NCBI GenBank assembly: GCA_943736015.1
Contig: OX031062.1
Location: forward strand, 53,060,962-53,124,961
Direction of reading: 5' to 3'
From: Tridacna crocea
Lineage: Eukaryota; Mollusca; Bivalvia; Cardiida; Cardiidae
Length of the DNA stretch: 64,000 nt
Position numbers and translations under genes: made by a program. Shown in pieces: positions 14,901 to 64,000 of this stretch. Within the stretch, counting starts at the first letter, position 1. The number at the start of each line of letters is the position of its first letter. The notes below the pieces were generated by a model. The model was given only the letters and a program-made list of their open reading frames with translations, had not been told where the DNA came from and ran no database searches.

Positions 14901-17900
14901 TTCAAAATGGACTGGTCTTACATTTTATTATTTGGTAAAGAGTTAACAGAAGATATAGTATCATTATGAATATGTTAATTAAAATCAAGCTTTAACCCTT
15001 TCCCAGACGGCAAATTTTGGACCAGACCAAATTCAAAGCATTTTGCCGATGACAAATTAACAGTTGCTTAAAAGATGATTTTTCTATATGATAGGGTAGA
15101 AAACATTGTGGGAAAAGGAGAAAATGCTGGGTACCAGCATTTTCTCCTTTTCCCACAATGTTTTCAAAAGGCTTCTATTCCTTTCCCATAAAAACCAGGA
15201 TTGTTTGGGAAAGGGTTAAACAAACAGAAAGCTTTTGAAAACATCATTCGAAAAGGAGAAAATGCCGGTGACAAGTAGTACCTCCTTCTCCCATTTCTAC
15301 CCTGAGATTTTATCATTCAAGCCATATTGTTTTTCCAGATCATAGCTGTGTGCTACTGAGAAACAGATTTAACCCATTACCAAAAGACAAAATTTTAGAC
15401 TGGTCCAAATTGAAAGGGTCTACAGACGACCAAATGAATGCGACTAAAGAACTAAAATTTGTTTTAGGAAGGGAAGAAAACATTGTGGGAAAACAAAAAA
15501 AATGCTGGGTAACAGCATTTTCTCCTTTTCCCACAATGGTTTCAAAAGGCTTCTTTCACGAGGGTGTTTAAAGTCGATATTGTGAGGTAAAGGGTTAAAT
15601 ATGAACAAGAAGTGAATTACTAGCCTAATAATAATAATAATTCATTATAAGCAAGTTTCCTTGAAACTATCTTTTGCCTTTTACATACCTACATACAAAA
15701 AATCAAATACAGTTAATATAAATTTCAATACACATATATAATTAACTTTTCTCTCAAACTAGTTCGATAAAAATTTCATCTCGATTGCATACTCATATCA
15801 GACACAAGTAACATCATGTAGTTTGAGCAAGTGGCCTTAATTTACAATAAAAAATTGATTGAAGGACTCACCCCCTCTATTGTAATTCCATCTGCTGGTG
15901 ACAAACACTGAAGTCCTCCATTTGCCATGATAGCCGCATGTATATGTCTCATGTCTTTAACTCTGTCTCTGTACAGGCTGACCTCAGTCTCTAAACGGTT
16001 GCACAGTAGCTCCTTCCATCTTCTACAAGTATAATCAAGTTATATTGTACAATGTCCTATCTGTGTGTTTGTTTGATTGATGCTCAATGCCTTTTCCAAC
16101 ATTATTTCACTTATATATTGTCATAGGCAAAGCACAAAGTCATGCATTTCTGAAAGTTCCTTAACCCTAAAAGTGTTGAATTAAACAAGACACATTTTTA
16201 AATAGGAAAAACATCTGAAATATTGCTGTACCAAGGTCTTTTTGGCAAGAATATGTAACAAAATAGTGGACAGTATAGATCTAAGATCAGACTGCACATT
16301 CTGTGCAGTCTGATCTTGATCTACATTGTCCACAAAAACAAGTTAAGACAGTTCCAGAGCTTTAAGGGTTAAATATTTACCAAACAAGTTTTTTTGGACT
16401 GGACAAAATTCAAAGCATTCTGCAGACAACAAATTAAATAATGTTAATACGATGATTTCTGATAAATCCCATCTGTGCCACTCATAATTGGTTGCCTGCA
16501 AATGCTTTCAATTTGGACCAGTGTCAAATCTATGATTTGGTACAGAGCTTATTGTATGCCAAGACACTCTTTAACAAACAACAAAATTCAAGATTTGTCC
16601 ATAATGAAAGAGTCTGCTGACATCAAACCAAAATCTAGTTCAAACCATGAAAATTGTCTTAGATGGGTAGAAAATATTATTGACAATATGATGCTGATCA
16701 CTAGCATTTTTTCATTTTTCAACAAAGTTTTCCCAGACTTTTTCTTTCTTATGGCCACTCAAGATTGTTGGGTAGAGACTTTATGAATCTACAGTAGACT
16801 ACTTTATTCAAGCTTACAATTCCGACAATTCTGACAACTGACCTAAGAAAAATCATGGAATAAGTAAATCAACTGAGAATGTGTTTGTGAAATGACTCAA
16901 AGTTTCAAACTCAACTCTTTACCAAATGACAGTTTTAGACTAGTCCATACTGGAGGCATTTGCAGAAAACAAAATTAATGTGACTCAAAAATTGTAATTT
17001 GTTTTGGAAAGCATAGAAAACATTATGAGAAAAGGAGAAAATGCTGGTTACCAGCATTTTCTCCTTTTCCCACAAGGTTTTCAGAAGGCCTCTTTCTAAG
17101 GGTCGTGAAACCAAGGATTGTTTGGTAAAGGGTTAACTCAGATGAGTTGAGTATGGACTTAAGTTTAATTCTTATAAAACCAGGCCAAGATAAATGATGT
17201 CTAAATGTATTCACTTGCAACACAGCTCCCAGTTATCTGTCCATATTTTGCAGAAATTTCAAAACTGGGATGGAAAAAGTTGTTACTTTTATTGTTGCCT
17301 TTTGCGTATTGCCTATTGCAATTTCTCTTCAATCTGGTACAAGAATATAACAAATAGACTGTTACTGTTACTTCTTAGGCTTAATTCTAAACCAATGATC
17401 AAAATTTTAGACAAAACCAAATTGAAAGAATCTGCAGATGACAAAATTAAATGTACATAAAGCAATGAGATTTGTTTATGCCAAAACAGAAAACATTGAA
17501 GAAAAAGGAGTAAATGCTGGTTACCCTCCTAACTCAGGGTCTTTAAATCTCACAACAGTGTGGTATAGGGTTAAATTGTCTAATGCTTACTGAAAAATAA
17601 CCTAAAAATATCACTTTGATCTTTCATATGTGTATGATTAACCCATTACCATACAATCCCTACTTTTGATGCCCCTGACAAAGAAGCCTTTTGAAAACAC
17701 TGTAGGAAAAGGAGAAAATGCTGGTAACCAGCATTTTCTCCTTTTCCCACAGTGTTTTCTACCCTTCCCTGAACAAATTTCAATTTTTCAGTCACCTTTA
17801 TTTTGTTGTCTGAAAATGCTTTCAATTTGAACCAGTCTAAGATTTTGTCGTGTGGTAAAGAGTTAACCCATTACCACACAATCCCTATTTTTGATGCCCC

Positions 17901-20900
17901 TGACAAAGAAGCCTTTTGAAAACACTGTAGGAAAAGGAGAAAATGCTGGTAACCAGCATTTTCTCCTTTTCCCACAGTGTTTTCTACCCTTCCCTGAACA
18001 AATTTCAATTTTTCAGTCACCTTTATTTTGTTGTCTGAAAATGCTTTCAATTTGAACCAGTCTAAGATTTTGTCGTGTGGTAAAGAGTTAACCCATTACC
18101 ACACAATCCCTATTTTTGATGCCCCTGACAAAGAAGCCTTTTGAAAACACTGTAGGAAAAGGAGAAAATGCTGGTAACCAGCATTTTCTCCTTTTCCCAC
18201 AGTGTTTTCTACCCTTCCCAGAACAAATTTCAATTTTTCAGTCACCTTTATTTTGTTGTCTGAAAATGCTTTCAATTTGAACCAGTCTAAGATTTTGTCG
18301 TGTGGTAAAGAGTTAACCCATTACCACACAATCCCTACTTTTGATGCCCCTGACAAAGAAGCCTTTTGAAAACACTGTAGGAAAAGGAGAAAATGCTGGT
18401 AACCAGCATTTTCTCCTTTTCCCACAGTGTTTTCTACCCTTCCCAGAACAAATTTCAATTTTTCAGTCACCTTCATTTTGTTGTCTGAAAATGCTTTCAA
18501 TTTGAACCAGTCTAAGATTTTGTCGTGTGGTAAAGAGTTAACCCATTACCACACAATCCCTACTTTTGATGCCCCTGACAAAGAAGCCTTTTGAAAACAC
18601 TGTAGGAAAAGGAGAAAATGCTGGTAACCAGCATTTTCTCCTTTTCCCACAGTGTTTTCTACCCTTCCCAGAACAAATTTCAATTTTTCAGTCACCTTTA
18701 TTTTGTTGTCTGAAAATGCTTTCAATTTGAACCAGTCTAAGATTTTGTCGTGTGGTAAAGAGTTAACTCTTCTCCAGTCCACAAAATATAAGACTTGTCT
18801 AAATCCAAAGCAACTGCAGATGACAAGTAAAGTATGGTTCAAATGATTGGGTTTGTCAAAGAAAGGGTATATTTTGAGAAATAGAGGGAATGTCATGTTT
18901 TCAAAAGCCTTCTTTCTCAGGGTTGTTAAAAACTTAGGACTGTTTGGTAAAGGGTTAAATATGTACATTTCTATGATATCTATATGATAACAAATTGGAA
19001 AACGAACTCTTTGATGGCAGGGAGTGCTTTCATTGATCAAAAGTTCAAGGGTTTCAAAGATTATTTTAACAACACTCTATAGTATCACCCAACTCATGTA
19101 ATTGAAAGTACTTCCAGCATTCAAAAAGGCTTGAAATTCTTACTCTGTTCTATTTATGGTTTTCTCAAACAGTTCCTGGGTAAGACATCCCTGTTGAATG
19201 AAGTACTGTGAGAGGGCTATCTCTTCACATATAGCTCTAGCCACACGGTAATCTTCATCTAGATTGAGAGCATTATTGGAAAACTTCAGCTCTGAATCTG
19301 AAAAACGTTACATATGATGTATACAGGTTGATTTTTTCAATTTCTTGGACTCTTTTCTAAACAAAAAGATTTTTAAATAGAGCCATACTCTGGAGAAAGG
19401 GGGCTTAATGCACCACTGCGATTCTTGTACCAAGCAAGCAATTACATATACATGTCTATGGATCCATAATATCAACCCTTTTTAACCCTTAAGCTGCTTA
19501 TCACCACTGGCTGACCAGCACAGATCATTTATTCAGTAGGACAAGGGTTAACGACCAACTTATTAATGACATAGACCGGTTATGGGTTAAACATATTTAT
19601 TTTACATCGATTGAGAAACAAGTTCTTACAACTTATACTAATCTCTCTCGATTCTGCTTCCTGGAAAGTACACCAGTACTCGCGCCGATTGTGTGGGCCA
19701 ATGAAAAATCACAAAGTTGACACCAGCTCCCGGGTATCAAACTCAGGACCTTTAGGTTATGAGACCGACGCTCTACCTCACGACCACGGACACCACACAT
19801 AGACCGGTCCTTGGACATACAGAAAATAACCAATTGCGAAAAGTTTCGGTGCACCTCAGCCTTCACAGACTGGGCAGGCTGACCTGGACTAATACTTTAG
19901 GGAGATGCATTAACCCATTACCACACAATCCCTACTTTTGACGCCCCTGAGAAAGAAGCCTTTTGAAAACACTGTGGGAAAAGGAGAAAATGCTGGTAAC
20001 CAGCATTTTCTCCTTTTCCCACAGTGTTTTCTACCTTATCAGAGACCTAAAGCTAATTTGTACCAGTTCTGAATTTGTCTTTTGCTGAGGCTCTTAGTTT
20101 GTAAGAGTCTAAAATTTGTTGTTTGGTAAAGGGTTAAAGGGAGAAACATGATGTTGACAATACACGTAGTTAATTTGTTGTCTGCACATGCTTTCAATTT
20201 AGTCCAGTTCATAATTAGATGTCCTTTGGTAAAGTGACTTATTTCAATACAATCCACGGGTAAACAAGATATAAAAGATTGCTCAAATGATGTGATTTGT
20301 GTTTCGAAGGGTTGAAAACATTGCGGGAAAAATATTGGTCAATGGCCTAAGTTGATTTCCCACTATATTTTGAGAAGCCTTTTTCCTTAACCCATTACCA
20401 CACAATCCCTACTTTTGACGCCCCTGAGAAAGAAGCCTTTTGAAAACACTGTGGGAAAAGGAGAAAATGCTGGTAACCAGCATTTTCTCCTTTTCCCACA
20501 GTGTTTTCTACCCTTCCCAGAACAAATTTCAATTTTTCAGTCACCTTTATTTTGTCGTCTGCAAATGCTTTCAATTTGGACCGGTCTAAAATTTTCTCGT
20601 GTGGTAAAGAGTTAAGCACCCTTTTGCCAGAACATGGCTCATTCATAATTCAGCTATGCTCTGAGAAAAATTGGCTTAATTCATCTGTCAAAAGTATCAA
20701 CTAAAGTCAGCCTGCACAGATCCCACAAGCTGGCCTTGGCGGAAACATTTTACTATCAATTAATTTTCTGCATGTCAAAGAATGACTCTACTTAATGACT
20801 CAGATGGTTCTTGCACAAAATTGTATCTAAAGAATTCATAGTAATATGATGACTTGGCATAATTTATCATAGAGATGCAATAACTCATTGCCAAACAACA

Positions 20901-23900: not shown

Positions 23901-26900
23901 AGCCATACTAAGTCAACAGAGGGCTTAATGCATCTGCGAAAAGTATCAACCCAGGTCAGTCTGCACAGTTTATGCCAGCTGATTTGAGCCGAAACTTTTC
24001 ACCATTGGTCAATTTTCTGTTTGTCAAAGGATCAATTTACCTCATGATTAAGTAGTTTATTTAAAAAATAGGCTCTTATCGATCCATAATAATGTGATGA
24101 CTTGGGCAAGTATCATGTAAAACGGAGATGCATTAAACCCCCTTTTGCCACAGCATATGCATTAAATTCCTTTTTCATAGAGTACTGGTGAAATGTGATA
24201 TTGTTAATCCATATGATTACCTGAGGTAGAAATGTAGAAAGCTCTTAAAAACTCTTTTAAAAATATGAAAATGATGTTTTTTTTTTCATTTTCTTCTCTT
24301 CTCACAATGTTTTTTTTTTCCAACCTCTCAAAGACAAATTCTTGAATTTGGGTCAAGTTTAATGCCATATGCAGGTGCTTTCAATATGGCAGATTCTAAA
24401 ATCATTATCATAGAGACCAGCATTGTCTTCATTTTCCAGTGTGATCTACCCTTTCACACTTTACCACACAATCCCAACTTTAAACTACCCTGAGAAAGAA
24501 GACTTTAGAAAACATTGTGGGAAACAGAGAAAATGCTGGTAACCAGCATTTTCTCCTTTTCCCACAAGGTTTTCTACTCTTCACAAAACAAATGCAAATT
24601 TTCAGTCACTTTTATTTTGTCATCTGTAAATGCTTTCGATTTGGACAAGCCTTAAAATTGTTGATTGGTGATGAGTTTAAGACAAATTCCATTATAAGAG
24701 TGGCATTTAAATTGATGTCTGTATAATACGGATGGTTCGAAAATGTTCTCTGGGGCTTACTTAAACTTTTACCAGGTGACAAACATTTAGAGTTATCCAA
24801 TTTGAAACAACAGTGAAAGTGTGGCTGAAATTTCAAGAATTGGTCGTGAAAGACTAGAAAACACTGTGGGAAAAGGAAGCAATGCTGATTACCAGCATTT
24901 TCTTTATTTCCCACAATGTTTTCACAAGGCTTATTCTTTTGGGTCGTTCAAACTCAGGATAATATGGTAAAGGTTTAACTCTTACCAAACAACAAAATTA
25001 TAGACATGTCAAAAATGAAAGAATTTGCAGACAACAAAATAAATGTGACTCAAAAATTGAAACTTGACTTTAGAAGAGTAGGAAACATTGTGGGAAAAGG
25101 TGAAAATGCTGGTAACCAGCATTTTCTCCTTTTCCCACAATGTTTTCAGAGTGCTTCTTCCTCTGGGTCTTAAGGTCTTAATAACCAGGGATTGTTTGGT
25201 AAAGAGTTGAGGTAAATCAAAGACTGACCTTGACAATCTACACGTAGCTGGCATTTCTTTGGTCCACTTCACCTCTCCGTCGCGAGAATGTTGCTCCCCG
25301 GCGATAACCCCAAACTCTTTACTCGCAATCATTTTAAACCTGTAATAGAATGTTACATCCACTTCCATGTGCTTTTAGGTGATTTCACTCTTTTTAGGTT
25401 ACTTTATCACCTTACCTTATATGTCTCCAATAACTGAGTCATGCTCTAAGAAAGGGGGTTTAACCCTTTACCACACAATGACGACTTTTGACGACCCCCC
25501 CCCCCCTCCGCCAGCAAGGAGCCTTTTGAAAATATTGTGGGAAAAGGAGAAAATGCTGGCAACCAGCATTTTCTCCTTTTCTCACAATGTTTTCCACATT
25601 ATGAAAGTCAAGTTTCAGTTTTTGAGTCTCATTTATTTTGTTGTCTGCAAATCCTTTTCTCACACTGTTCTACCCTTCCCAAATCAAATTTCAATATTTC
25701 AGCCAAATTTATTTTGTTGTCTGCAAATGCTTTCAATTCTGACCAGTCTATACATTTGTTGTTTGGTAAAGAGTTAATGCATCTGCGAAATATATCTATC
25801 CAGACCAACCTGTTGAAAAGTAAGCTATTTGTAACCTTTCTGCATGTTTAAAAAGCATTCAACCTAATGATTTAACTTTTTACCAAACAACAAAATTTTA
25901 GCCTTGTCCAAATTGAAAGCATTTGCAGACGACAAAATAAACATGAATGAAAAATTAAAATTTGGTTTGGGAATGGCAGAAAGACATTTTGGTTACCAGC
26001 ATTTTCTCCTTTTCCCATGATGTTTTCTAAAGGCTTCTTTCTCAGGGTCGTCAAAAGTAGGGATTGTGTGGTAATGGGTTAATAGGTTCAAGACAAAATA
26101 GAATTTATTGCTTTCTAATTACGACCTGTTTGGTAAATTGCATCATGGAGATTTGCGCAGAGTAATCATGATCTTCTTTAACTCTTTACCACACAAGCTT
26201 AACCCTTTGGCTGCTTATCGCGTCTCACTGACCTTTTGCAGACAGCGCAGATCAAGATTAGACTGCACAGAATGTGCAGTCTGATCTTGGATCTACACTG
26301 TCCAATGAGGAGTTATTATTCCCAAAATCATAACTTTGAAATGACAGTATTTGGGGTTTTACTATCGAAATGAAAATTTCATTTTAGTTATTTAGCAGGA
26401 TAAGAGTTAATAAAGACTTGTCCAAATCAAAAGCGATTGCAAAGGAAAGTTTAAATGTAGCTTACATGATTGAAGTTATCTATGATAGGGAAGAAAACAT
26501 TGTGGGAAAAGGAGAAAATGCTGGTCACCAGCATTTTCTCCTTTTCCCACAATGCTTTCAAAAGGCTTCTTCCTACGAGTAATTTAAACTCGGGATTGTT
26601 TGGTAAAAGGTTAAAGAAAAGTGCAAAGTTTGTATCAGTTCTGTAAGATCTTTGATCCCTTTACCACACGGCCAATTTTTAATGACCCTGATAGAAAGGC
26701 CCTCTGAAATCATTGTGGGAATAGGAGAAAATGCTGGAAACAGCCTTTTAACGACCCCAAGGAAGACGCCTTCTGATAACATAGTGGGAATAGGACAAAA
26801 TTCTGATAACTAGCATTTTCTCCTTTGCCCACCATGTTTTCTACCCTTCTACCACACAATGGCAAGTTTTAATCCATTCCCACAAAATAACAAAATTTTC

Positions 26901-29900
26901 AACAACCCTGAGAAAGAAAAACTTCTGTGAAGAAAATTCTGGTAACCAGTATTTTCTCCTTTTCCTAAATTGTTTTCAAAAGGCTCTTCCCCCAGTAATC
27001 CATTACAAAATTCTTTAAGAATCTTTTTACAAAATTACAAAGTCTAGTATTTTCCAAATGGAAAGCTTCCACAGTGGAAAAATCAAATCGTCGGTATACA
27101 TGTACTTCCAAAACTTCATAATTAAAGCATGTAACAAGCTGTAGTTACAAGGTTTTTGAAGTAAACCGACAAGATGTGATGCAAATGGTGAAATTTGTCC
27201 TTGAAAGGCAGAAAACATTGTTGGAAAAGGAAAGAGATAATTACAGTTTTTTTAAGCTACATATAATTAGTCATCTGCAAACACTTTCAATAACCCTTAC
27301 CACACAACAAAATTTTAGCCTAATCCAAATTGAAAGCATTTGCAGACAACAATTTCAACATGGCTCAAATAATGCAATCTTGCTTTGATAGCATAGAAAA
27401 CATTGTGGCAAAAGAAGAAAATGCTGGCCTCCAGCATTTTCTCCTATTCACACAATGTTTTTCAAAGCCTTCTTCTACAGTGTCGTGGAAACCTGGAATT
27501 GTTTGGTAAAGAGTTAAATATATGATCATTAATTTTGTCAGAGTATTCAAACTGCTCTCAAGACAGTATAGAATCAAAGGTTGATGCTTTGCTTACATCA
27601 AATGATGATCATTTCTGCCATAATATGGTTGAAAGGGCACTTTTCCAGTGGCTGCATGATAAAGTGTGGCCCCTAAGCTCCACAGGTCAGCCCCTGCATC
27701 AAATTCTCTTGACATCCCATGGTCTATGAAAGCTGCTTTGAAAATATCTGGATGCTGCAATATAAATAAAAACAATTAACAATCATTATCAACCCTTTAC
27801 CACACAACTAAATTTTGTACCAGTCCAAATTCAAAGCATTTGAAGACAACAAAATGTGAATAAAGAAATTGAAATTTGATTTTGGGAAGAGTAGAAAAAA
27901 TTGTGGGAAAAGGAGAAAATGCTGGGTACCACCATTTTCTCCTTTTCCCAAAAATGTTTTCAAAAGGGTTCTTTTGTCAGGGTCGTTAAAAGTCAGGATT
28001 GTGTGGTATAGGGTTAAAGAAAGCAAAGTTTTAGCTGTGCTCAAGTTGATAGCATTCACAGACTAGAAATAAGGTGAAACTCAAAGTATGGAGTCTATCA
28101 AAGGATAGAAAACCTTCTCTGAGAGAAGGAGAAAATCCTGGTTACCAACATTTTCTCCTTTTCACACACTGTTTTCCAAGGGAGTCTTCCCATTGTCACA
28201 GAAAGTCTAGATTGTGTGATAAGAGTAACTGCTTTACCAAACAATGAAATTTCAGATCTCTTAAAATTGAAAGCAATGGCTGACGATAAATTAGATGTGG
28301 CAAAAATGAGGGGATACAGTCTGTGAAAGGTAGAAAACATTGTGGGAAAAGGAGAAAATGCTGGTTACCAGCATTTTCTCCTTTTCAAACAATGTTTTCC
28401 AAAGCCATTTCTATTAGGATTATAAAATGTCAGGATTGTGTGGTTAACCCATTTACACACAATCCCTACTTTTGACACACCTGAGAAAGAAGCCTTTAGA
28501 AAACATTTTGGGAAAAGGAGAAAATGTTGGTAACCAGCATTTTCTCCTTTTCCCACAACATTTTCTACTCTTCATAAAATAAATTTCAAATTTTCAGTCC
28601 CTTTTATTTTGTCGTCTGCAAATGCTTTCAATTTGGACAAACCTAAAATTTTGTCATTTGGTAATGAGTTAAAGGTTAAACAGGGAAGAAATTGAAAGAG
28701 GACTCACCAGATACTCCTCTGTACCAACCAATGACTGGAAAGCCTCAGTTTCCATCATTGGTTTAGCTGTTCCAAAGTCTGATAGTTTATACACATGACT
28801 GAAATAGATGTAAAAGCATTTTACACTTAACTCTTTACCAAACGACAAAATTTTAGACTGGTCCAATTTGAAAGCATTTGCAGACGACAAAAAAAATGTG
28901 ACTAAATGATTGAAATTTACATTAGGAAGGGAAGAAAACATCGTGGGAAAAGGAGAAAATGCTGGTTTCCAGCATTTCCTCCTTTTCCAACAATGTTTTC
29001 AAAAGGCTTCTTTCACAGGGTTGATAAAGGTCGCCATTGTGTGGTAAAGGCTAAACTAAACTACAGAATTTTAGATTGCTCCAAATTGAAACCACTTGCA
29101 AAGAACAAATTGAAGATGGCCAAAATGACAAAATTCTAATTTGTTGATATTATGACAGAAAACATTGTGGGGAAAAAAATGCTGATTACCTGCATCTGTT
29201 CCTTTTCCAACGTTTTCAGGAACTTTCTTCCTCCTAAGTTGTCGAAAGTCAAGATTTTGTGGTAAACTGTTAACCCTTTACCACAGAATCCCATGATTTA
29301 AAGAACTTGATGTGAAGAGCTTTTGAAAACATTGTAGGAAAAGGAAAAGGTGCTGGTAACATGCATTCTCTCCTTTTCTAACAAAGCTTTACAAAGCCTT
29401 TCTTCTTATGACCTGAATTTGTCATTGTTATGGGAGATCACATATTCCTTAACGGACAGCTTCTCCCTGTATGAAGTCATAACCTAGCAACTGCATTAAC
29501 TCTTTACCTCACAATGATGACTTTTAACGCCCCTGAGGAAGAAGCCTTTTGAAAACATTGTGGAAAATGGGGAAAATGCTGGAAACCAGCATTTCCTTCT
29601 TTTCCCACAAAGTTTTCTACCCTATCAAAGCAAAATTGCACCATTTGAGCCACTTTGAAATTGTCGTCTGCAAATGCTTTCAATTTGGGTAAGTCTAAAA
29701 TTCTGCAATGTGGTAACAGCTTAAAAAGATTTCTCCATAGCTCAGTGGTCAGTACATTGGGTCTTTTGTGCCTAAATAAATTGTGGATTTCGCCACAAGG
29801 GTTCGAATTCTAGCATATACAGTTTGTATTTCAGCTATGTATTTGTTGCAAATTTTCATGTTTGTAAGATGCTGGGGCTCCATTTCATAAAGCTACACGC

Positions 29901-40333: not shown

Positions 40334-41860
40334 CACACTGATCAACGTGAGCCGCGGACACCATGTGTTCTCGGTACACCAGATCAAATTTTTCCATGGA
40401 AGAACCGAAGGTGGTGTAAGTATTTTCATTTTTATGGACCTGATTCACCTAGATAGAAATGTTGATTTACAGCAATGTCAAGACGAATGATTGATCTGTT
40501 TACACACATACTAGGGAATAATAATACCATCATATAAGCGAGCTGTGGCTTTATGAGCAACTGGGGTCTTATTGTTTTGAAGTTTGTTGCCGATTTTCGG
40601 ACAAAATCCCCTAACCATTGTTCATTTTACAGTTTGTATGATAAGATAAATGTATTCCCTAAAGGAACACAAAATTTCACTTAGAAATGTCCATCCAAAG
40701 CGAAGATATACGTTTTTGAATGGACCTAGGTCGAGGAAAATATGCTAACAAGACACCATTTTCATTTTCAGAGTATGTACATGGACACCAGATCAGAAAC
40801 AGATTGTGGTAACTGGACACCAACCTTTAAATCATCAATATTTCTGCCTGAAACTGGATGCATGGGCTGTATACGAAGATTATTTTTGTAAACATTATGT
40901 CACTACGGTCCATTACCTGATAAAGAGCATGTTCAACGCAATTTCATTACTTGTAGCACTTGCTTTTTTTTTTTTAAACATTTGCAATGTTACGGCAATT
41001 TACGAAGTAGACCTACGATGCTTGATCACAATTGACCGGTCATTGCCTCCAATGTTGGTGCAAGACATGTTCTTTTTTTACAGCGTTTCAGTTTTATGAA
41101 TGGCGTATTACGAACCCATTACCACGCAATCACGAGCTTTAATGTCCCTGGGAAAGATGGCTTCGAAAAACATTATCTATAAAGAAAAACCCCTATTAAC
41201 TAATACAGAGTGTACATTATTTACCACATTTGGCCCGATTCTTAGTTTAAATAATTTTCAAATCCGCTTGGCCAACTGCCAGCGGGCTATTAGAATGGCG
41301 TTCTGCCCTTCGTACATTTGCATGCGTGCGTTTGTCCGTCTGCGCGTTTATTTCTAAAATTTTTATTTAATTGACTTCTCCTCAGAAACCACCAAGTGGA
41401 AATCAACAAAATTCAACATGGATGATTCCATAAATTTCTTCGAGATGCTTCGATCCTTTAAAAAAGATGGCTTATGTGGAAGGAGCTTATTTTCCGTGTA
41501 CGGCGCGTTGTGAAAATTGTAAAATTTGTCCTCTCAAAAGAACTCTATCACGAGATTGGCATTGGGTAGCTTTCTATCACATTCCTTCAATAAATTTTGA
41601 TCTGCTGAAAAACATGGCTTTTGTTGGTGGGGCTTATTTTCTCTATGTGTCATAAAGCGGAAGTACTTGCAGCTCTTTAAATAAATTCATTGATAATGCA
41701 TGTAAGTAGATCTACATGTATTTCATAACGCAGATGATCACTGATAATGTTTCATTGTATCCAATATGCTTGGTGATCATGATATATGAGATATTAATTT
41801 TTATTGTTACAAACTTACATAGTTCTTCGGGAAATGCAGCATTAGTGTTCAGAAATAGTT
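40334..41860 (+). repeat. large palindrome, left arm
   Basis: Begins CACACTGATCAACGTGAGCC and pairs with 42319-43508. It carries about 332 extra bases (41436-41767) that the other arm lacks. A family A fragment lies at 41111-41200. Confidence 0.92.
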
Positions 41861-42318: not shown

Positions 42319-43508
42319 AACTATTTCTGAGCACTAATGCTGCATTTCCAAGAACTATGTAAGTTTGTAACAATAAAGATTAATATCTCATTATATCATG
42401 ATCACCCAGCATTTATGGAATCATCCACGTTGAATTTTGTTGATTTCCACTTGGTGGTTTCTGAGGAGAAGTCATCTAAATAAAAATTTTAGAAATAAAC
42501 GCGTAGACGAACAAACGCACGCATGCAAATGTACGAAGGGCAGAACGCCATTCTAATAGCCCGCTGGCAGTTGGCCAAGCGGATTTGAAAATTATTTAAA
42601 CTAAGAATCGGGCCAAATGTGGTAAAAATTGTACACTCTGTATAAGTTAATAGGGGTTTTTTCTTTATAGATAATGTTTTTCGAAGCCATCTTTCCCAGG
42701 GACATTAAAGCTCGTGATTGTGTGGTAATGGGTTAATACGCCATTCATAAAACTGAAACGCTGTAAAAAAAAAGAACATGTCTTGCACCAACATTGGAGG
42801 CAATGACCGGTCAATAGTGATCAAGCATCGTAGGTCTACTTCGTAAATTGCCGTAACATTGCAATTATTTCAAAAAAGCAAGTGCTACAAGTAATGAAAT
42901 TGCGTTGAACATGCTCTTTATCAGGTAATGGACCGTAGTGACATAATGTTTACAAAAATAGTCTTCGTATACAGCCCATGCATCCAGTTTCAGGCAGAAA
43001 TATTGATGATTTAAAGGTTGGTGTCCAGTTACCACAATCTGTTTCTGATCTGGTGTCCATGTACATACTCTGAAAATGAAAATGGTGTCTTGTTAGCATA
43101 TTTTCCTCGACCCAGGTTCATTCAGAAACGTATATCTTCGCTCTGGATGGACATTTCTAAGTGAAATGTTGTGTTCCTTTAGGGAATACATTGATCTTAT
43201 CATACAAACTTGTAAAATGAACAATGGTTAGGGGATTTTGTCCGAAAATCGGCAACAAACTTCAAAACAATAAGACCCCAGTTGCTCATTAAGCCACAGC
43301 TCGCTTATATGATGGTATTATTATTCCCTAGTATGTGTGTAAACAGATCAATCATTCGTCTTGACATTGCTGTAAATCAACATTTCTATCTAGGTGAATC
43401 AGGTCCATAAAAATGAAAATACTTACACCACCTTCGGTTCTTCCATGGAAAAATTTGATCTGGTGTACCGAGAACACATGGTGTCCGCGGCTCACGTTGA
43501 TCAGTGTG
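42319..43508 (-). repeat. large palindrome, right arm
   Basis: Inverse of the left arm with scattered substitutions (for example GGACCTAGGTCGAGG against GAACCTGGGTCGAGG). It contains the mirrored family A fragment at 42661-42737. Confidence 0.92.
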
Positions 43509-57207: not shown

Positions 57208-57291
57208 TGATTCAAAGGCGGAGTGGTCACAGATCAGGCAGTTTTCTGAGCAGTTTGATTTTGAGACGTGCAGGCTTGGCACTTTTTGTAT
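57208..57291. other. target region of the retrotransposon, left side
   Basis: GAGACGTGCAGGCTTGGCACTTTTTGTATTG-like sequence. A similar unit recurs at about 63540-63590, so the element landed in a short tandem duplication. Confidence 0.5.
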
Positions 57292-57843
57292 TGTTACGAG
57301 TCAGGCGTAACTAGAAAGAAGAAGCCAGCAACAAACGATAACAATTAACAGAATTTATTAACAAAAATATCAAATAAACAGTTACAATAGTACAAAACAA
57401 TACCTTAGACGTTAAATTCAGAAGACAAACTATTCCAGTCTTAATTCCAATCTGATCCTGATCCAAACTAAATGTAATCCAAGCACATGAAATAATCCTC
57501 ACTTTAGTCTAGTCTGATCCGAATCCAAACTGAATGTAATCCAAGCACTAATTATGACACAAACACAAAATAATCCCCACTGTAGTCTGGCAATCATGTA
57601 TTAACTAGTGAACACTGAGATGTAAAAAGCTTTTCCTTTTATAATAACAGGGAAACTTCCAGAAAATTCATGTTAAAATCAGTTGCATAATTCTTAGTAA
57701 TCGGATTGTATAAAGGCCTGGAAACTTCCAGCACAATATTCTACAAGAGAGAGTTCAGTTCTAAAAATAGCAACAGGGGAAAACCATTCAAAAATAGATA
57801 CACACATGAACAAAGCTAGGAATAACTGGGTATGTACATAACA
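57292..57843 (-). repeat. 3' LTR of the retrotransposon
   Basis: Same length and, by eye, same sequence as the 5' LTR. TATAAAAG at 57643-57636, AATAAA at 57359-57354. Confidence 0.95.
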
Positions 57844-57855
57844 CTTCCCCCCTTG
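57844..57855 (-). other. polypurine tract
   Basis: The minus strand reads AAGGGGGGAAG immediately before the 3' LTR, where plus-strand DNA synthesis starts. Confidence 0.88.
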
Positions 57856-58067
57856 AAAAGAAAAAGAAAGGTTTATGAAATAAATCTTTCTTTTTTGCAA
57901 TATTATTTATATACATGTATGTGACACTTTATCTGAAGTATACATAGGAAATGACAAACTCAAATATTAATTATTTCAGACTAATGAAAATAATCAAGGT
58001 AATGAAATTACAATTTAAAAGAAAAAACAGTTTAAACTTGATTTACGGAGAAACGACTATTGAAATT

Positions 58068-61000
58068 TCAAACTCTTGAAAGAGCATCTGGTATAATGTT
58101 ATCTTTCCCTTTTATGTGTCTTATGTCAAGATTAAACTCTTGAAGCAATAAACTCCACCTCAGTAATCTTTGATTCTTATTCTTAAGTTTGTGTAGAAAA
58201 CTTAAAGGGTTATGATCACTGAAAACAACAATTGGTGAAGTTGAAGAGGTTAAATAAACTTCAAACTGCTGGATTGCCAGAATTAAGGCAAGACACTCTT
58301 TTTCTATGGTAGAGTAATTTTTCTGATGTTTGTTAAATTTCTTAGAAAAGTAACAAACTGGGTGATCAATACCATTATTATCTTCTTGTAAAAGAACAGC
58401 ACCAATACCAACATCACTTGCATCAACAGCTAATTTGAAACATTTGTCAAAATCAGGTGCCAAGAGAACTGGTGCGCTCTTTAGTATGGCTTTTAGACGA
58501 TCAAATGCATCTTGACATTTGTCATTCCATTTGAACTTTGCACTTTTCTTAAGTAAATTTGTTAAAGGTTCAGCAATACCCGAGAAATTTTTACAGAATT
58601 TCCTATAGTAGCCAGCCATACCAAGAAATCGCATCAGCTGTCTTTTACATTTAGGCACAGGAAACTCAGAGATAGCATTGACTTTAGCTTCTAAAGGTTT
58701 AACTTGACCCTGTCCCACAAGATGTCCTAGAAATGTTACAGTAGCATGACAAAATTCAGTTTTTGCAAGATTCACAGTCAGTTTCGCTTTACTGAGTCTG
58801 TCGAAGAATTTCCTGATTCTTTGAAGGTGGTCACTCCAACTGTCTGAGTAGATGATGACGTCGTCAATATATGCATCACAGCCATCTAATCCACATATAA
58901 CATTGTTTACAAGTCGCTGAAACGTTGCAGGAGAATTTTTCATCCCAAACGGCATAACTTTGTACTGGTACAGACTGTTTGGAGTAGCAAAGGCTGATAC
59001 TTCTTTTGCTCTATCAGTCAGTGGAACTTGCCAGAATCCTTTTAGCAGGTCAAATTTGGTGACATATTTAGAATTTCCAACTTTGTCAATACAGTCATCA
59101 ATTCTTGGTATTGGAAAAGAGTCTGTTTTTGTCACAGAGTTCACTTTACGATAGTCAGTACACATTCTATAAGTTCCATTTGATTTGGGTACTAATATAC
59201 ATGGTGAACTGTAATTACTCTGGCTAGGTTCAATAAAGTCATTTTCCAGTAAGTATTTTACTTCATCTTGGAGGTATTTCTGTTTCAAAGGATTCATTCT
59301 ATATGGATGTTGCTTTATTGGTTTAGAATCTTCCACAATGACATCATGATAGGTTTTATCTGTTCTTGTGGGGATATCAGGAAATAAATGTTCATATTCA
59401 TGTATCAACTGTTTCAGCTCTTCCTGCTGTGATGGTTCCAAGTGCGAAAGTTTGTTGTTAAGGTTTCTCAAAATATCCGAATTCTCAAGTTTAGATGGAC
59501 CAGGATCAGATTTATCATTAAAGTCAGAATTTACTTCAATTTCAAATACACTTGATTCTTGTGGGACAGTGTTTACAACTGTAATTGGTTTTGAAATAGA
59601 GCTATCTCTATCAAAGTATTCCTTTAACATATTTATATGACACATTTGTTTGTTTTTACGCCTTCCTGGAGTATTAATTATATAGTTTAAATCACTTGTT
59701 TTCTTGTCAATAGTGTAGGGTCCAAAATATCTTGCCTGTAGAGGTCTGCCAGGTATTGGCAAAAGAGCAAGTACTTTGTCACCTGGTTTAAATTTTCTAT
59801 CAGTAACATGGTTGTCATATCTTGCTTTCATTTTGCCCTGAGACGTTTTAAGATTAGACCTAGCAACCTCACATGCCCTAGACAGTCTATTTCTGAAGTC
59901 AGAAACATATTGTAGTAAATTCAAAGGTGTTTCATCATTTGAGAGAAATTTCTCTTTCAAAAGTTTTAAAGGTCCACGAACAGAATGGCCAAAAACTAAT
60001 TCAAAAGGACTGAAACCAAGAGATTCTTGTACAGATTCTCTGACTGCAAATAGTAACATATGGATACCCTCATCCCAATCTTTTTCAGTGTCAAAGCAAT
60101 ATGATCTTATCATATTTTTTAATGTCTGGTGAAATCTTTCTAAAGCACCTTGGCTTTCAGGGTGATAAGCGGATGACCTGTATTGCTTGATTCCTAATTC
60201 GTGCATAACCTGTTGGAATATACCAGACATAAAATTTGACCCTTGATCAGACTGAACTGATTTTGGAAGACCAACAAATGTGAAAAATTTTATTAGAGCT
60301 TTGACTATTGACTTTGTTTTGATGTTCCTTAAAGGAATAGCTTCAGGAAAACGTGTAGAAGTACACATAATTGTTAAGAGATACTCATTTCCCGACTTGG
60401 TTCGCGGTAAAGGACCGACACAATCTATAAGTATCCTACTGAAAGGTTCATCAAAAGCAGGAATAGGTTGTAATTGAGCTTTGGGAATGGTTTGGTTGGG
60501 TTTACCTACCATTTGACATGTATGGCAAGTTTTACAATATTTAGAGACATCTGATTTGAGGCCAGGCCAATAAAAATGAGTAATAATTTTGTGATAGGTC
60601 TTGTTTATACCTAGATGACCTGACATAGGACTTTCATGGGCTATACTTAGTATTTCATGACGATATGACTTTGGAACCACAATTTGGTGGTAAACAGCCC
60701 ATTCATCATCAGCTGGGACATCAAATGGTCGCCATTTTCTCATAAGAATCCCATTCTTTATATAGTAACACATTGGGACCTCTGAAATTTCATCTTCAGG
60801 TAAAGCCCTAAAAATTAATTTTGAAATCTCAGGATCAGCTTGCTGTTCCTGGATAAGCTGTGACTTTGACAGCGTGTCATGACCTTGGTCAATAGACCGT
60901 GGTGGTGTATGACAAGACATTGACGAGTCTGTCTGAGTATCAGACAAACTGGGATCAAGAGACTTTTTAATCTCATTATTAAAATATTGACCGATAAAAG

Positions 61001-62777
61001 TATCTGTCAAGTCAATGTCAGAGTTTGAGTTTTTCAAAATGGCCTTTTTAGCCATAGCTCGGGTAACTGCACAAGAAGGATACAAGTCAGGAATTTCCTG
61101 CTCGATAGGGTCATCTGTTTGACCTATATTTGGTGTGTCAGTTACAAGTGGATTAACCACAACCTTATCTCCAGCTAAGTCATTGCCTAGCAGTAAATGG
61201 ACACCTTTAAATGGTAAGGAAGGTTTAATACCAATAACCACAAGCCCAGTAACCAAATCTGACGACAAATTAACGTAATGGAGAGGGATATTAACAGTTC
61301 CACACTCTACACCCTGAATAAGGACACTAGTACCGGAAGAAGTCTTCTCAGAAAAAGGCAGTATATCTGCTAAAATAAGAGATTGAGAAGCTCCTGTGTC
61401 TCTTAAAATTTTAATTGGGGTAGGTGGGCAATTATCACCTGAAAGTGATACAAAACCATTCAACATAAATGGTTCAAAAATCTCCATAGTAGAATCAGAC
61501 TTGGGTTTTGTGACTATGTCAATTGTATTGGTTTTAATAGAAGACTGTGGCCTTGGTCTAAGAGTGGTGAGCCCTGTTGGCTTGGCTTCATCACTTTCTA
61601 ACTTCCTTTTTAATTTCAAACATTCAGAAACAAGGTGACCAGGTTTCTTACAATAGTTACAAGTGGGTCGAGATAAGGGATATTGACTTTTGGTTTCACT
61701 AGTAGAATTGGGTTTGGGTGTATTGGATTGACTGGGCACGCCAGATGAATTACCAGACATAGATTTATTTTGGGGATGTGAGGAAGTAGGTTTTGCTTTA
61801 GCAATAAAAGAAACTTTATGTGTAAGATAGTAATTATCAGCCAGACGAGCTGCTTCTTCTAAAGTTTCAACTTGTTTTTCGTCTAAGAATGTCTTAACAT
61901 CAAATTGAATACAACGTTTGAATTCTTCAACTAACATAAGTTGTCTGAGTTTATCAAAATTTTGGTCTATTTTCTTAGAACAGCACCATCTATCAAATAA
62001 CTGTTCTTTGTTTCTAGCAAATTCAACATGAGTCTGGTTAGAATCTTTTTTACAATTTCTAAATTTTTGTCTATATGCTTCTGGGACCAGCTCATAACCT
62101 TTGAGAATAAGTTCTTTAACAGTCTCATAATGATGACATTGTTCAACGCCTAGTTGTGTATAAATTTCACGAGCTTTGCCTATCAAAACACTTTGCAGAA
62201 GCAAAGTCCAGTGCTCTCTTGGCCAATTTAAGTTTTCTGCAACTTTTTCAAAGTGTAGGAAGTATTTATCAACTTCTTTTTCTTGAAATGGAGGAACAAG
62301 CCTAATATGTTTTGTAACATCGAAATTGTATTCAATCTTTTGCTTGGGCTGATTTGCTCTTTCTTGCATTTCTATTTCCCTCATTCTTAATTGAAATTCT
62401 CTCTCCTCTCTCTCTTCCCTTTCCCTTTCTTCTCTCTCCCTTTCTCTTTCTCTTTCCTTCTCTCTCTCTACCATTTCTTCTCTCTGTCTTTCCCTTTCTC
62501 TTTCTATTTCTAACTGTCTGATCTGAAGTTTTAATTCAAGTTCTTTCGAACTTGAAACTGACTGAACGTCAACTATCAGGGAAAGAGCATTTTCATTGAA
62601 AATCTCCTCATCAACAAAATATTGTACCAAAATGTTCTTAATTTCATGTTTACGCATTGAAGATTTTATTTCAGACAATTTATAGTGCTTCGCAAGATTA
62701 AGCAAATCAGTCTTTTTACCCAAATTCAATAACTCCACAGACGGTTCAGCCGTAAATTTATCTAAGTCAAAAGACAT
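58068..62777 (-). CDS. gag-pol polyprotein of Gmr1-like retrotransposon, 1569 aa
   Basis: One frame without stop or shift. Gag: a Glu/Arg-rich coiled coil (about 78-146); a SCAN-like capsid part (about 195-320) with PEAYRQKFR and ETLEEAARLADNY; and a CCHC knuckle C373, C376, H381, C386. Protease: DTGA at 460-463. Integrase: H714, H721, C751, C754 zinc motif; D785, D844 and E880 with 35 residues between the last two; GPY at 1019-1021. Reverse transcriptase: YIDD at 1303-1306. RNase H: D1452 and D1521, ending at 1569. It copies element RNA and inserts the DNA. Gag and pol are fused, so no frameshift sets their ratio. All visible catalytic residues are intact. The ATG at 62777-62775 starts MSFDLDKF and is the first in the leader frame. 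Confidence 0.96.
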   Translation of the reverse strand: MSFDLDKFTAEPSVELLNLGKKTDLLNLAKHYKLSEIKSSMRKHEIKNILVQYFVDEEIFNENALSLIVDVQSVSSSKELELKLQIRQLEIERERERQREEMVEREKEREREREREEREREEREEREFQLRMREIEMQERANQPKQKIEYNFDVTKHIRLVPPFQEKEVDKYFLHFEKVAENLNWPREHWTLLLQSVLIGKAREIYTQLGVEQCHHYETVKELILKGYELVPEAYRQKFRNCKKDSNQTHVEFARNKEQLFDRWCCSKKIDQNFDKLRQLMLVEEFKRCIQFDVKTFLDEKQVETLEEAARLADNYYLTHKVSFIAKAKPTSSHPQNKSMSGNSSGVPSQSNTPKPNSTSETKSQYPLSRPTCNYCKKPGHLVSECLKLKRKLESDEAKPTGLTTLRPRPQSSIKTNTIDIVTKPKSDSTMEIFEPFMLNGFVSLSGDNCPPTPIKILRDTGASQSLILADILPFSEKTSSGTSVLIQGVECGTVNIPLHYVNLSSDLVTGLVVIGIKPSLPFKGVHLLLGNDLAGDKVVVNPLVTDTPNIGQTDDPIEQEIPDLYPSCAVTRAMAKKAILKNSNSDIDLTDTFIGQYFNNEIKKSLDPSLSDTQTDSSMSCHTPPRSIDQGHDTLSKSQLIQEQQADPEISKLIFRALPEDEISEVPMCYYIKNGILMRKWRPFDVPADDEWAVYHQIVVPKSYRHEILSIAHESPMSGHLGINKTYHKIITHFYWPGLKSDVSKYCKTCHTCQMVGKPNQTIPKAQLQPIPAFDEPFSRILIDCVGPLPRTKSGNEYLLTIMCTSTRFPEAIPLRNIKTKSIVKALIKFFTFVGLPKSVQSDQGSNFMSGIFQQVMHELGIKQYRSSAYHPESQGALERFHQTLKNMIRSYCFDTEKDWDEGIHMLLFAVRESVQESLGFSPFELVFGHSVRGPLKLLKEKFLSNDETPLNLLQYVSDFRNRLSRACEVARSNLKTSQGKMKARYDNHVTDRKFKPGDKVLALLPIPGRPLQARYFGPYTIDKKTSDLNYIINTPGRRKNKQMCHINMLKEYFDRDSSISKPITVVNTVPQESSVFEIEVNSDFNDKSDPGPSKLENSDILRNLNNKLSHLEPSQQEELKQLIHEYEHLFPDIPTRTDKTYHDVIVEDSKPIKQHPYRMNPLKQKYLQDEVKYLLENDFIEPSQSNYSSPCILVPKSNGTYRMCTDYRKVNSVTKTDSFPIPRIDDCIDKVGNSKYVTKFDLLKGFWQVPLTDRAKEVSAFATPNSLYQYKVMPFGMKNSPATFQRLVNNVICGLDGCDAYIDDVIIYSDSWSDHLQRIRKFFDRLSKAKLTVNLAKTEFCHATVTFLGHLVGQGQVKPLEAKVNAISEFPVPKCKRQLMRFLGMAGYYRKFCKNFSGIAEPLTNLLKKSAKFKWNDKCQDAFDRLKAILKSAPVLLAPDFDKCFKLAVDASDVGIGAVLLQEDNNGIDHPVCYFSKKFNKHQKNYSTIEKECLALILAIQQFEVYLTSSTSPIVVFSDHNPLSFLHKLKNKNQRLLRWSLLLQEFNLDIRHIKGKDNIIPDALSRV

Positions 62778-62949
62778 GTTTGTTTGTTGCTGGATTCAAG
62801 TACAAAATTGTATTATAATTACTGATTAGTAAACGAATGCGTTAGTCTAGTTTCCAATCGATGGATAGTCCAAAATGGAAAACAAATACGTTAGTCTATT
62901 TTCCAATCCCGTTAGTCTATTTTCCAATCCCGGACGAGCCCCCAATTTC
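62778..62949 (-). other. retrotransposon leader with 21-bp tandem repeats
   Basis: Between primer site and gag start. GTTAGTCTATTTTCCAATC (plus strand) occurs at 62890 and 62911, and a variant near 62843. The copy next to the LTR overlaps the primer site by a few bases. Confidence 0.7.
62927..62944 (-). other. primer-binding site, tRNA-Pro
   Basis: The minus strand reads TGGGGGCTCGTCCGGGAT, five bases inside the 5' LTR. It is complementary to the 3' end of tRNA-Pro, the same 18 bases used by murine gammaretroviruses. Confidence 0.93.
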
Positions 62950-63501
62950 TGTTACGAGTCAGGCGTAACTAGAAAGAAGAAGCCAGCAACAAACGATAAC
63001 AATTAACAGAATTTATTAACAAAAATATCAAATAAACAGTTACAATAGTACAAAACAATACCTTAGACGTTAAATTCAGAAGACAAACTATTCCAGTCTT
63101 AATTCCAATCTGATCCTGATCCAAACTAAATGTAATCCAAGCACATGAAATAATCCTCACTTTAGTCTAGTCTGATCCGAATCCAAACTGAATGTAATCC
63201 AAGCACTAATTATGACACAAACACAAAATAATCCCCACTGTAGTCTGGCAATCATGTATTAACTAGTGAACACTGAGATGTAAAAAGCTTTTCCTTTTAT
63301 AATAACAGGGAAACTTCCAGAAAATTCATGTTAAAATCAGTTGCATAATTCTTAGTAATCGGATTGTATAAAGGCCTGGAAACTTCCAGCACAATATTCT
63401 ACAAGAGAGAGTTCAGTTCTAAAAATAGCAACAGGGGAAAACCATTCAAAAATAGATACACACATGAACAAAGCTAGGAATAACTGGGTATGTACATAAC
63501 A
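62950..63501 (-). repeat. 5' LTR of the retrotransposon
   Basis: Read on the minus strand it starts TGTTATGTACATACCC and ends GCCTGACTCGTAACA. TATAAAAG at 63301-63294 is the likely core promoter; AATAAA at 63017-63012 is the likely poly(A) signal. Confidence 0.95.
63294..63301 (-). promoter_or_regulatory. TATA box in 5' LTR
   Basis: TATAAAAG about 200 bases from the LTR start in element orientation, a normal U3 position. Confidence 0.6.
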
Positions 63502-64000
63502 GTATTGTAAATCGTGCACTATGTTGTGCGGTTTGGTATTGAGACAAGCAGGCTAGGCGCTTTTTTGTATTGTAAAGTGTCTTTGATGCGTGTGTCTGTG
63601 GTGTGTGCTGCATCTGTCGTTACTTTGGTAGTTATGTTACCATCATCGATGGCTACAGAATTTATTCTGAGTAACTATAACTCAGGTGAGCGATTACATA
63701 TTGTGATCGTGCTGTGTCCGTAAGATGAGGCGATTTTAGTGCAGTATATTTTATTTTCTAATACTACGAAGAATTACGTGTGGGAATTTGATCTGTAATA
63801 AATTTTTTCAGACATTTTAGTATTAAAAGTATGTTCACTGTAAATTTGTTGTTTCTGAATCGAAAAAATGTATGTATCTGTTCATTTTTCAACTATAGTG
63901 ATCTAAATGTTACAAAATGCATAAAGGGAGGTAATCAGACAAGAAACTTGCAGGCATCTTTAGTTGGCAAAATAAATTGCTTTTCCACATTTGTTTGCTG
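63502..64000. other. right flank of the retrotransposon, no gene seen
   Basis: It contains the second copy of the target-site unit (GAGACAAGCAGGCTAGGCGC), an AATAAA at about 63798 that could serve the plus-strand candidate gene, and AAAGGGAGGTAAT near 63926, a phrase also found near 56306. Confidence 0.4.

Follow-up and report, generated by a model that had tools for sequence, protein, structure and literature searches.

Structure of the element

The window, the whole stretch of 64,000 nucleotides that was analysed, contains an LTR retrotransposon of 6,210 bp on the minus strand at 57292-63501; these coordinates, already given in an earlier note made from the sequence alone, are exact, with LTR identity ending abruptly at both sides. 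The strand was absent from that note. The 3' LTR (57292-57843, minus strand), which has TGTTA...TAACA ends, and the 5' LTR (62950-63501, minus strand) are each 552 bp long and had been described as looking identical; aligned base by base, they agree at 552/552 positions. The tetranucleotide GTAT flanks the element on the left (57288-57291) and on the right (63502-63505), bearing out the 4-bp target duplication that had been proposed.

The 5' LTR includes the motifs TATAAAA (63295-63301) and AATAAA (63012-63017), both on the minus strand. A 19-nt primer binding site (62926-62944, minus strand) complements the 3' end of a host tRNA-Pro, CCA included, and matches the tRNA-Pro genes of the same assembly at 19/19 positions in all four genes compared. 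In the leader, a 20-nt unit occurs three times (62910-62929, 62889-62908 and 62840-62859, together spanning 62840-62929 on the minus strand), and these repeats differ among the genome copies of the element. A polypurine tract, AAGGGGGGAAG (57844-57854, minus strand), adjoins the 3' LTR. The element thus has the features by which an LTR retrotransposon is recognized: two TG...CA LTRs, a target duplication, a primer binding site, a polypurine tract and gag-pol.

The Gag-Pol frame and its domain order

A single gag-pol open frame (58068-62777, minus strand) runs from 62777 down to 58068 and encodes 1,569 aa with no internal stop, in keeping with the unbroken frame noted before; at the local base composition, the probability of a stop-free run this long arising by chance is about 8e-52. 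Pfam matches to four overlapping pieces of the translation, together with a protease recognized from its motif only, give the order Gag-PR-INT-RT-RH, the same that the earlier note had read from the letters, and the catalytic residues named there (D785, D844 and E880 of the integrase, YIDD at 1303-1306 of the reverse transcriptase) are correct. From the N-terminus, the domains, all on the minus strand, are a SCAN domain of Gag (aa 232-320; 61818-62084; PF02023, E 2.2e-11), a CCHC zinc knuckle seen as a motif under Pfam's cut-off (aa 373-386; 61620-61661), an aspartic protease region with DTGA at aa 460-463, its borders approximate and set by eye (61098-61415), an integrase with H2C2, a DD35E core formed by the three acidic residues and a p58 C-terminal domain (aa ~693-1055; 59613-60701), a reverse transcriptase core identified by Pfam and by its YIDD motif (aa 1196-1352; 58722-59192), and a Pfam-supported RNase H (aa 1442-1548; 58134-58454).

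The best match among solved structures is Ty3 for both the reverse transcriptase (E 6.5e-83) and the integrase (E 2.8e-35), and the Ty3-type RT-RNase H and integrase sequences place the element in Ty3/gypsy (Metaviridae). Yeast Ty3 (4ol8, 7q5b) has homologous RT-RH and INT modules but arranges them the other way round, with RT (chain positions 624-1008) ahead of INT (1079-1461). Judged by sequence comparison, the clam element combines modules of Ty3/gypsy type with a Copia-like domain order. That order is the only feature that speaks for a Ty1/copia element, in which integrase first is the normal arrangement. This identity has practically no chance of being correct and was rejected, because the RT and INT are of the wrong sequence type: the former is PF00078 with RT_RNaseH, the latter carries H2C2 and the p58 domain, and the closest solved relative of both is Ty3. 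Copia elements make 5-bp duplications, whereas the target duplications are 4 bp in 14/14 copies of this element examined, the window copy included.

SCAN-type Gag and the protease flap

A SCAN domain is present in 13/13 Gag segments compared, from the window and 12 relatives, in an alignment that omits a near-copy of the window (P0011). The 13-row profile matches the ZNF24 SCAN structure with an E of 1.9e-4; a single-sequence search of one Gag piece against solved structures gave no match. A SCAN-type Gag has been reported for Gmr elements (PMC4131045, PMC4592553, PMC3424704), and this capsid segment, a reported Gmr1-like trait, is present here. Bivalve elements, namely those of Pecten and Pinctada and the one described here, carry the part of Gag that underlies the SCAN domain of vertebrates.

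The protease flap of the clam element reads LIQG. A TIHG motif has been mentioned, as data not shown, for Gmr-1 (PMC2577118) and occurs in 0/51 proteases in which the flap was located, the window's among them; TIHG is a minor trait and is not treated as defining the Gmr1-like clade.

Relatives and clade placement

A query consisting of the 910-aa INT-RT piece yielded 2,592 matches, and in all of the best 120, which were listed, INT precedes RT. This order is partly pre-selected because the query itself was INT-RT, and a scan with RT only serves as the check: it returned 13 loci, one INT-first at 65% identity and 12 RT-first at 32-41%. Integrase upstream of reverse transcriptase, the arrangement that characterizes Gmr1-like elements, thus contrasts with 12/13 of the RT-only loci.

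Trees of the kind that the earlier note had proposed were computed for RT and INT. In both, the 24 INT-first rows, which include 22 relatives hand-picked from the 120 listed plus L001, form one group in a comparison without named Gmr1 elements, on one side of a branch with support of 100/100 for RT and 99/96 for INT, which supports a shared ancestry of the clam element and other gypsy elements that have the integrase first. RT-first elements are few in this comparison, Ty3 being joined by 11 contigs for RT and by 10 for INT, and the tree program flagged long branches among them. Rows that were too short were dropped, L013 from both trees and L006 from that of INT. When viral_contigs was scanned with the RT alignment, 56 pattern matches and 0 relatives emerged.

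The Gmr1-like clade of Ty3/gypsy goes back to Goodwin and Poulter (2002; via PMC6238403, PMC8220671, PMC3587641). It shares with the clam element the integrase ahead of the reverse transcriptase, Ty3/gypsy-type sequences and the SCAN-type Gag cited above; the clam element differs in its bivalve host and in its protease flap, which has LIQG where TIHG has been mentioned for Gmr-1. Gmr1-Gmr4 of Tetraodontiformes are reported to be 6,058-6,465 bp long, with LTRs of 337-518 bp and a single Gag-Pol of 1,506-1,634 aa (PMC11117352). The clam element, compared with these by description, is alike in length and in its single frame, which fall within the approximate Gmr range (~6.1-6.5 kb, ~1,500-1,630 aa; PMC11117352), and differs in a slightly longer LTR and in having a bivalve rather than a vertebrate host. 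Gmr1-like elements are also in print from protostomes, e.g., LGF3 of the annelid Lamellibrachia (PMC8220671) and several from crustaceans (PMC3587641), assigned to the clade by their authors. The earlier note had named deuterostomes as the animals in which the group was first recognized; with crustacean and annelid elements already published, a protostome member is less surprising than this implied.

It could be argued that the element belongs to an independent integrase-first Ty3/gypsy lineage, unrelated to Gmr1, that underwent its own rearrangement to the Copia-like order. The trees hold no named Gmr1 sequence, none being among the matches listed for either the INT-RT or the RT-only search, and the TIHG trait is absent. 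Against such a lineage, matches from Amphiura, Glandiceps, Apostichopus and Holothuria, members of the deuterostomes for which Gmr1 was defined, lie inside the INT-first group at 64-68% identity across the 910-aa piece; the SCAN-type Gag has been published for Gmr elements; and the fish elements come close to it in overall size, in the length of their LTRs and in having one Gag-Pol frame. A separate origin is accordingly improbable, and the assignment to the Gmr1-like clade made in the earlier note is supported, with the label resting on domain order, SCAN-type Gag, architecture and the single INT-first group, and with the likeness to named Gmr1 elements drawn by description.

Copies in the genome and recency

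The assembly (1.05 Gb) was taken earlier to be that of a likely mollusc; its COX1 is 97% identical to that of Tridacna derasa, so the host is a giant clam or near kin. A genome search, suggested in the earlier note, revealed many near-identical copies. Thirteen further LTR pairs, chosen as nearest to the window LTR, all have 4-bp duplications and show 0-2 differences, seven of them none. RT matches, chosen as nearest to the window RT, are free of stops in 105 of the 106 scored, and for 76 of the 106 the surrounding open frame reaches 1,550 aa or more; sampling by nearest match favours young, intact copies in both sets. Among 13 RT stretches from the dated copies, one has a stop and one has two gap bases. 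Over 11 copies, omitting L071 (the two gap bases) and L066 (535 of 1,167 bases aligned), differences from the window comprise 123 synonymous and 54 nonsynonymous changes, an excess of synonymous change with a per-site ratio of 0.117.

One identical LTR pair, taken alone, cannot discriminate a recent insertion from an old one in which gene conversion or a collapsed assembly accounts for the identity, and such conversion within a pair could maintain identity in general. An old insertion with converted LTRs is nevertheless very improbable and was rejected: the 13 further pairs stand at separate sites with their own 4-bp duplications, and the RT of the 12 copies compared differs at 11-26 of 1,167 bases between copies, which are therefore not homogenized to one sequence. 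The young LTR pairs and stop-free RT matches uphold the recent mobility proposed before and suggest a very recent amplification of the family, with functional templates as its source.

The best explanation, to which we assign a probability of about 0.92, is that a Gmr1-like LTR retrotransposon of Ty3/gypsy type was recently inserted in the genome of a giant clam (Tridacna or very near kin) and that its family probably amplified very recently. The LTR promoter would produce an RNA packaged by the SCAN-type Gag; the single Gag-Pol polyprotein would be cleaved by its own protease; host tRNA-Pro would prime reverse transcription from the 19-nt site and the polypurine tract would prime the second strand; and the integrase, encoded ahead of the reverse transcriptase, would insert the DNA with a 4-bp duplication. 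Anatomy, primer match, duplications and young copies are direct observations, from which we infer transcription, particle formation and present-day movement.

Significance

The element is ordinary in kind. A 2018 survey of nine mollusc genomes and database sequences mentions Gmr1 in its background and, in the passages available, reports six known Gypsy clades, Gmr1 not among them. The literature searched (titles, abstracts and passages, covering part of the papers that mention Gmr1) yielded no description of a molluscan Gmr1 element, and "gmr" is absent from the main text of the Mercenaria genome paper (PMC8905726). A Gmr1-like family is now documented in a mollusc with dated copies, and its dozens of near-identical open copies make a good natural system in which to ask if the integrase-first order alters the life cycle.

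Horizontal transfer between marine phyla has been argued for Steamer-like elements, according to the title of a cited reference. A wider view, in which Gmr1-like elements act as a major force in the genomes of bivalves, still amplifying and overlooked by mollusc surveys, and in which the 64-68% protein identity of the clam element to those of echinoderms and a hemichordate results from horizontal transfers that crossed repeatedly from one marine phylum to another, is conceivable but rather unlikely.

Elsewhere in the window, 10 of the 319 frames of at least 55 aa were scanned and gave no Pfam match. The window also has an abundant dispersed repeat, for which 2,433 matches were found.

A complete Gmr1-like element in a giant clam

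The Gmr1-like LTR retrotransposon of the window is complete at 57292-63501, where an earlier note had placed an apparently intact element, and reads on the minus strand. Its LTRs, bounded by TGTTA...TAACA and described in that note as looking identical, agree at 552 of 552 positions in a base-by-base comparison, with the match stopping immediately beyond both, and the claimed 4-bp target duplication is seen as GTAT on either side. A single gag-pol frame of 1,569 aa is open from 62777 to 58068 (minus strand); the remaining two same-strand frames across this interval contain 96 and 196 stops. Pfam, run on four overlapping pieces of the protein, matches SCAN, a CCHC knuckle (under Pfam's cut-off), H2C2, rve, the p58 integrase C-terminus, RVT_1 and RNase H in this order. 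With the protease located by its DTGA motif, this is the predicted succession of gag, protease, integrase (INT), reverse transcriptase (RT) and RNase H, and the catalytic residues named beforehand, INT D785/D844/E880 and RT YIDD, are all in place.

The host, previously judged a likely mollusc, was searched as an assembly of 1,048,827,098 bases in 31 contigs. Its COX1 is 97% identical to that of Tridacna derasa, which makes the host a giant clam of Tridacna or a very close relative; the next match, from Lymnocardiinae (cockles), reaches 82%, and the other 118 among the best 120 of 7,999 scored are at 67% or below. COX1 lies at 26,516-27,850 of its contig (C31, L061), so the presumed mitochondrial contig exceeds 27 kb.

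The primer site starts five bases 3' of the 5' LTR. A tRNA-Pro query finds 12 matches in the host assembly, and ARAGORN calls tRNA-Pro at all four loci given to it; the 3' ends of these four genes, in the host's own sequence, match the primer site across 19 bases once CCA is added. The polypurine tract AAGGGGGGAAG abuts the 3' LTR, and TATAAAA and AATAAA are present in the LTR; by sequence match, all four are predicted replication signals. Of the 13 other copies dated by their LTRs (L048-L060), 11 carry the 18-mer primer site unchanged and two with a single mismatch; the ATG can be located in every one. The leader that separates the primer site from the ATG, 172 nt in the window element and 151-222 nt in these copies, is a small repeat array (62840-62929 in the window) of 20/21-nt and about 50-nt units that varies from copy to copy, possibly by slippage or recombination during reverse transcription. 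A duplication like the 21-base one of the window leader is seen in a single further copy, L054.

Assignment to the Gmr1 clade

Traits ascribed to Gmr1 elements in print are integrase-first order (PMC6238403, PMC8220671, PMC3587641) and a SCAN-related Gag (PMC4592553, PMC3424704, PMC4131045). Tetraodontiformes Gmr elements are 6,058-6,465 bp long, have 337-518-bp LTRs and encode one Gag-Pol of 1,506-1,634 aa (PMC11117352); the window element is 6,210 bp long, with 552-bp LTRs and a 1,569-aa frame. SCAN is matched in all 13 Gag segments submitted, one from the window and the others from 12 of the 54 relatives covering the region, and the SCAN profile reaches the ZNF24 SCAN structure (E 1.9e-4); a single-sequence search of the window Gag against solved structures gave no match. 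By contrast, the protease motif TIHG, ascribed to Gmr-1 as data not shown in PMC2577118, is LIQG in the window element and occurs in none of 51 proteases having a recognisable flap (among the longer proteins, the motif caught 52, one wrongly). This absence counts against the Gmr1 label, but as a minor trait. The label proposed earlier holds on INT-first order, SCAN Gag, size and single frame, all in agreement with published Gmr, and the window element is an unremarkable representative of the Gmr1-like clade, itself known but unusual, the named Gmr1 elements being compared by published description only. We found no description of Gmr1-like elements for this host group among the papers searched.

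Ty3 is the top solved structure for both the RT-RNase H and the integrase of the window element, yet in Ty3 RT precedes INT. Used as query, 910 aa of pol found 2,592 proteins at E <= 1e-10, and INT comes before RT in all of the best 120. Because this query itself spans INT and RT, an RT-only alignment scan of genome_contigs was added: it gave 93 pattern matches, 13 encoding a relative, of which one is INT-first (65% identity) and 12 are RT-first (32-41%). The contigs are bacterial and archaeal by their database entries but presumably represent eukaryotic contaminants.

In trees of RT (36 rows, without L013) and INT (35 rows, without L006 and L013), a check named in the earlier note and run here with 22 relatives hand-picked from the 120 proteins listed, the INT-first rows group together. 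A 100/100 branch separates the 24 INT-first rows of the RT tree from the others, and a 99/96 branch does so in the INT tree; long branches within the RT-first set were flagged by the program. Named proteins from Amphiura, Glandiceps, Apostichopus, Holothuria, Pinctada and Pecten are among the INT-first rows; the trees contain no named Gmr1 sequence.

The INT-first contig of the RT scan, NJBF01000089.1 (L001:1-5157), is catalogued under a Candidatus Heimdallarchaeota MAG and carries a Gmr1-like gag-pol with an ATG frame of 1,667 aa, apparently animal DNA that contaminates an Asgard archaeal genome. The same appears to hold for the proteins named after Ca. Thiodiazotropha and Campylobacter sp. 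CS_ED1.

Recent amplification

The genome search for other copies bears out the recent mobility suggested earlier. The window LTR gave 1,712 first-look candidates; the best 40 were scored, and all cover the full 552 bases at 97-100% identity. They comprise the window pair, 13 further complete pairs and 12 LTRs with no partner within the 40. Each of the 13 pairs sits at its own site within a perfect 4-bp duplication, and the two LTRs differ at no position in seven pairs, at one in four and at two in two, together 8 differences in 7,264 sites (mean about 0.001). If the neutral rate is taken as 1-4e-9 per site per year, a value that is not clam-specific, this corresponds to roughly 0.1-0.5 million years, a figure skewed young because the nearest copies were chosen.

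The window RT gave 3,557 first-look candidates, and the best 106 scored, a set tilted towards intact copies because it is best-scoring, are all full-length and 99-100% identical, with 105 free of stops; the surrounding open frames reach at least 1,550 aa in 76, 1,100-1,549 aa in 15 and less in 15. Among the LTR-dated copies, 11 RT stretches are comparable, two being left out (one with two gap bases, one aligned over 535 bases only), and a stop interrupts one of the 11. Against the window they show 123 synonymous and 54 nonsynonymous differences (per-site ratio 0.117); the variable changes among the 12 copies are 47 and 25 (0.141). Since these copies were chosen by LTR and not by protein, the synonymous excess is no product of choice, and it indicates descent from templates on which selection for RT function acted. 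The evidence for very recent amplification is unusually clean, and present-day activity of the family appears likely.

Other repeats of the window

An inverted repeat with 1.1-kb arms (40334-41435 and 42411-43508), 97% identical and about 1 kb apart, is a possible fold-back element. At 17638-18767, a 225-bp unit stands five times in tandem, 99% alike; it is made of a palindrome-rich repeat that recurs across the window and whose translated tag hits the protein collection 2,433 times.
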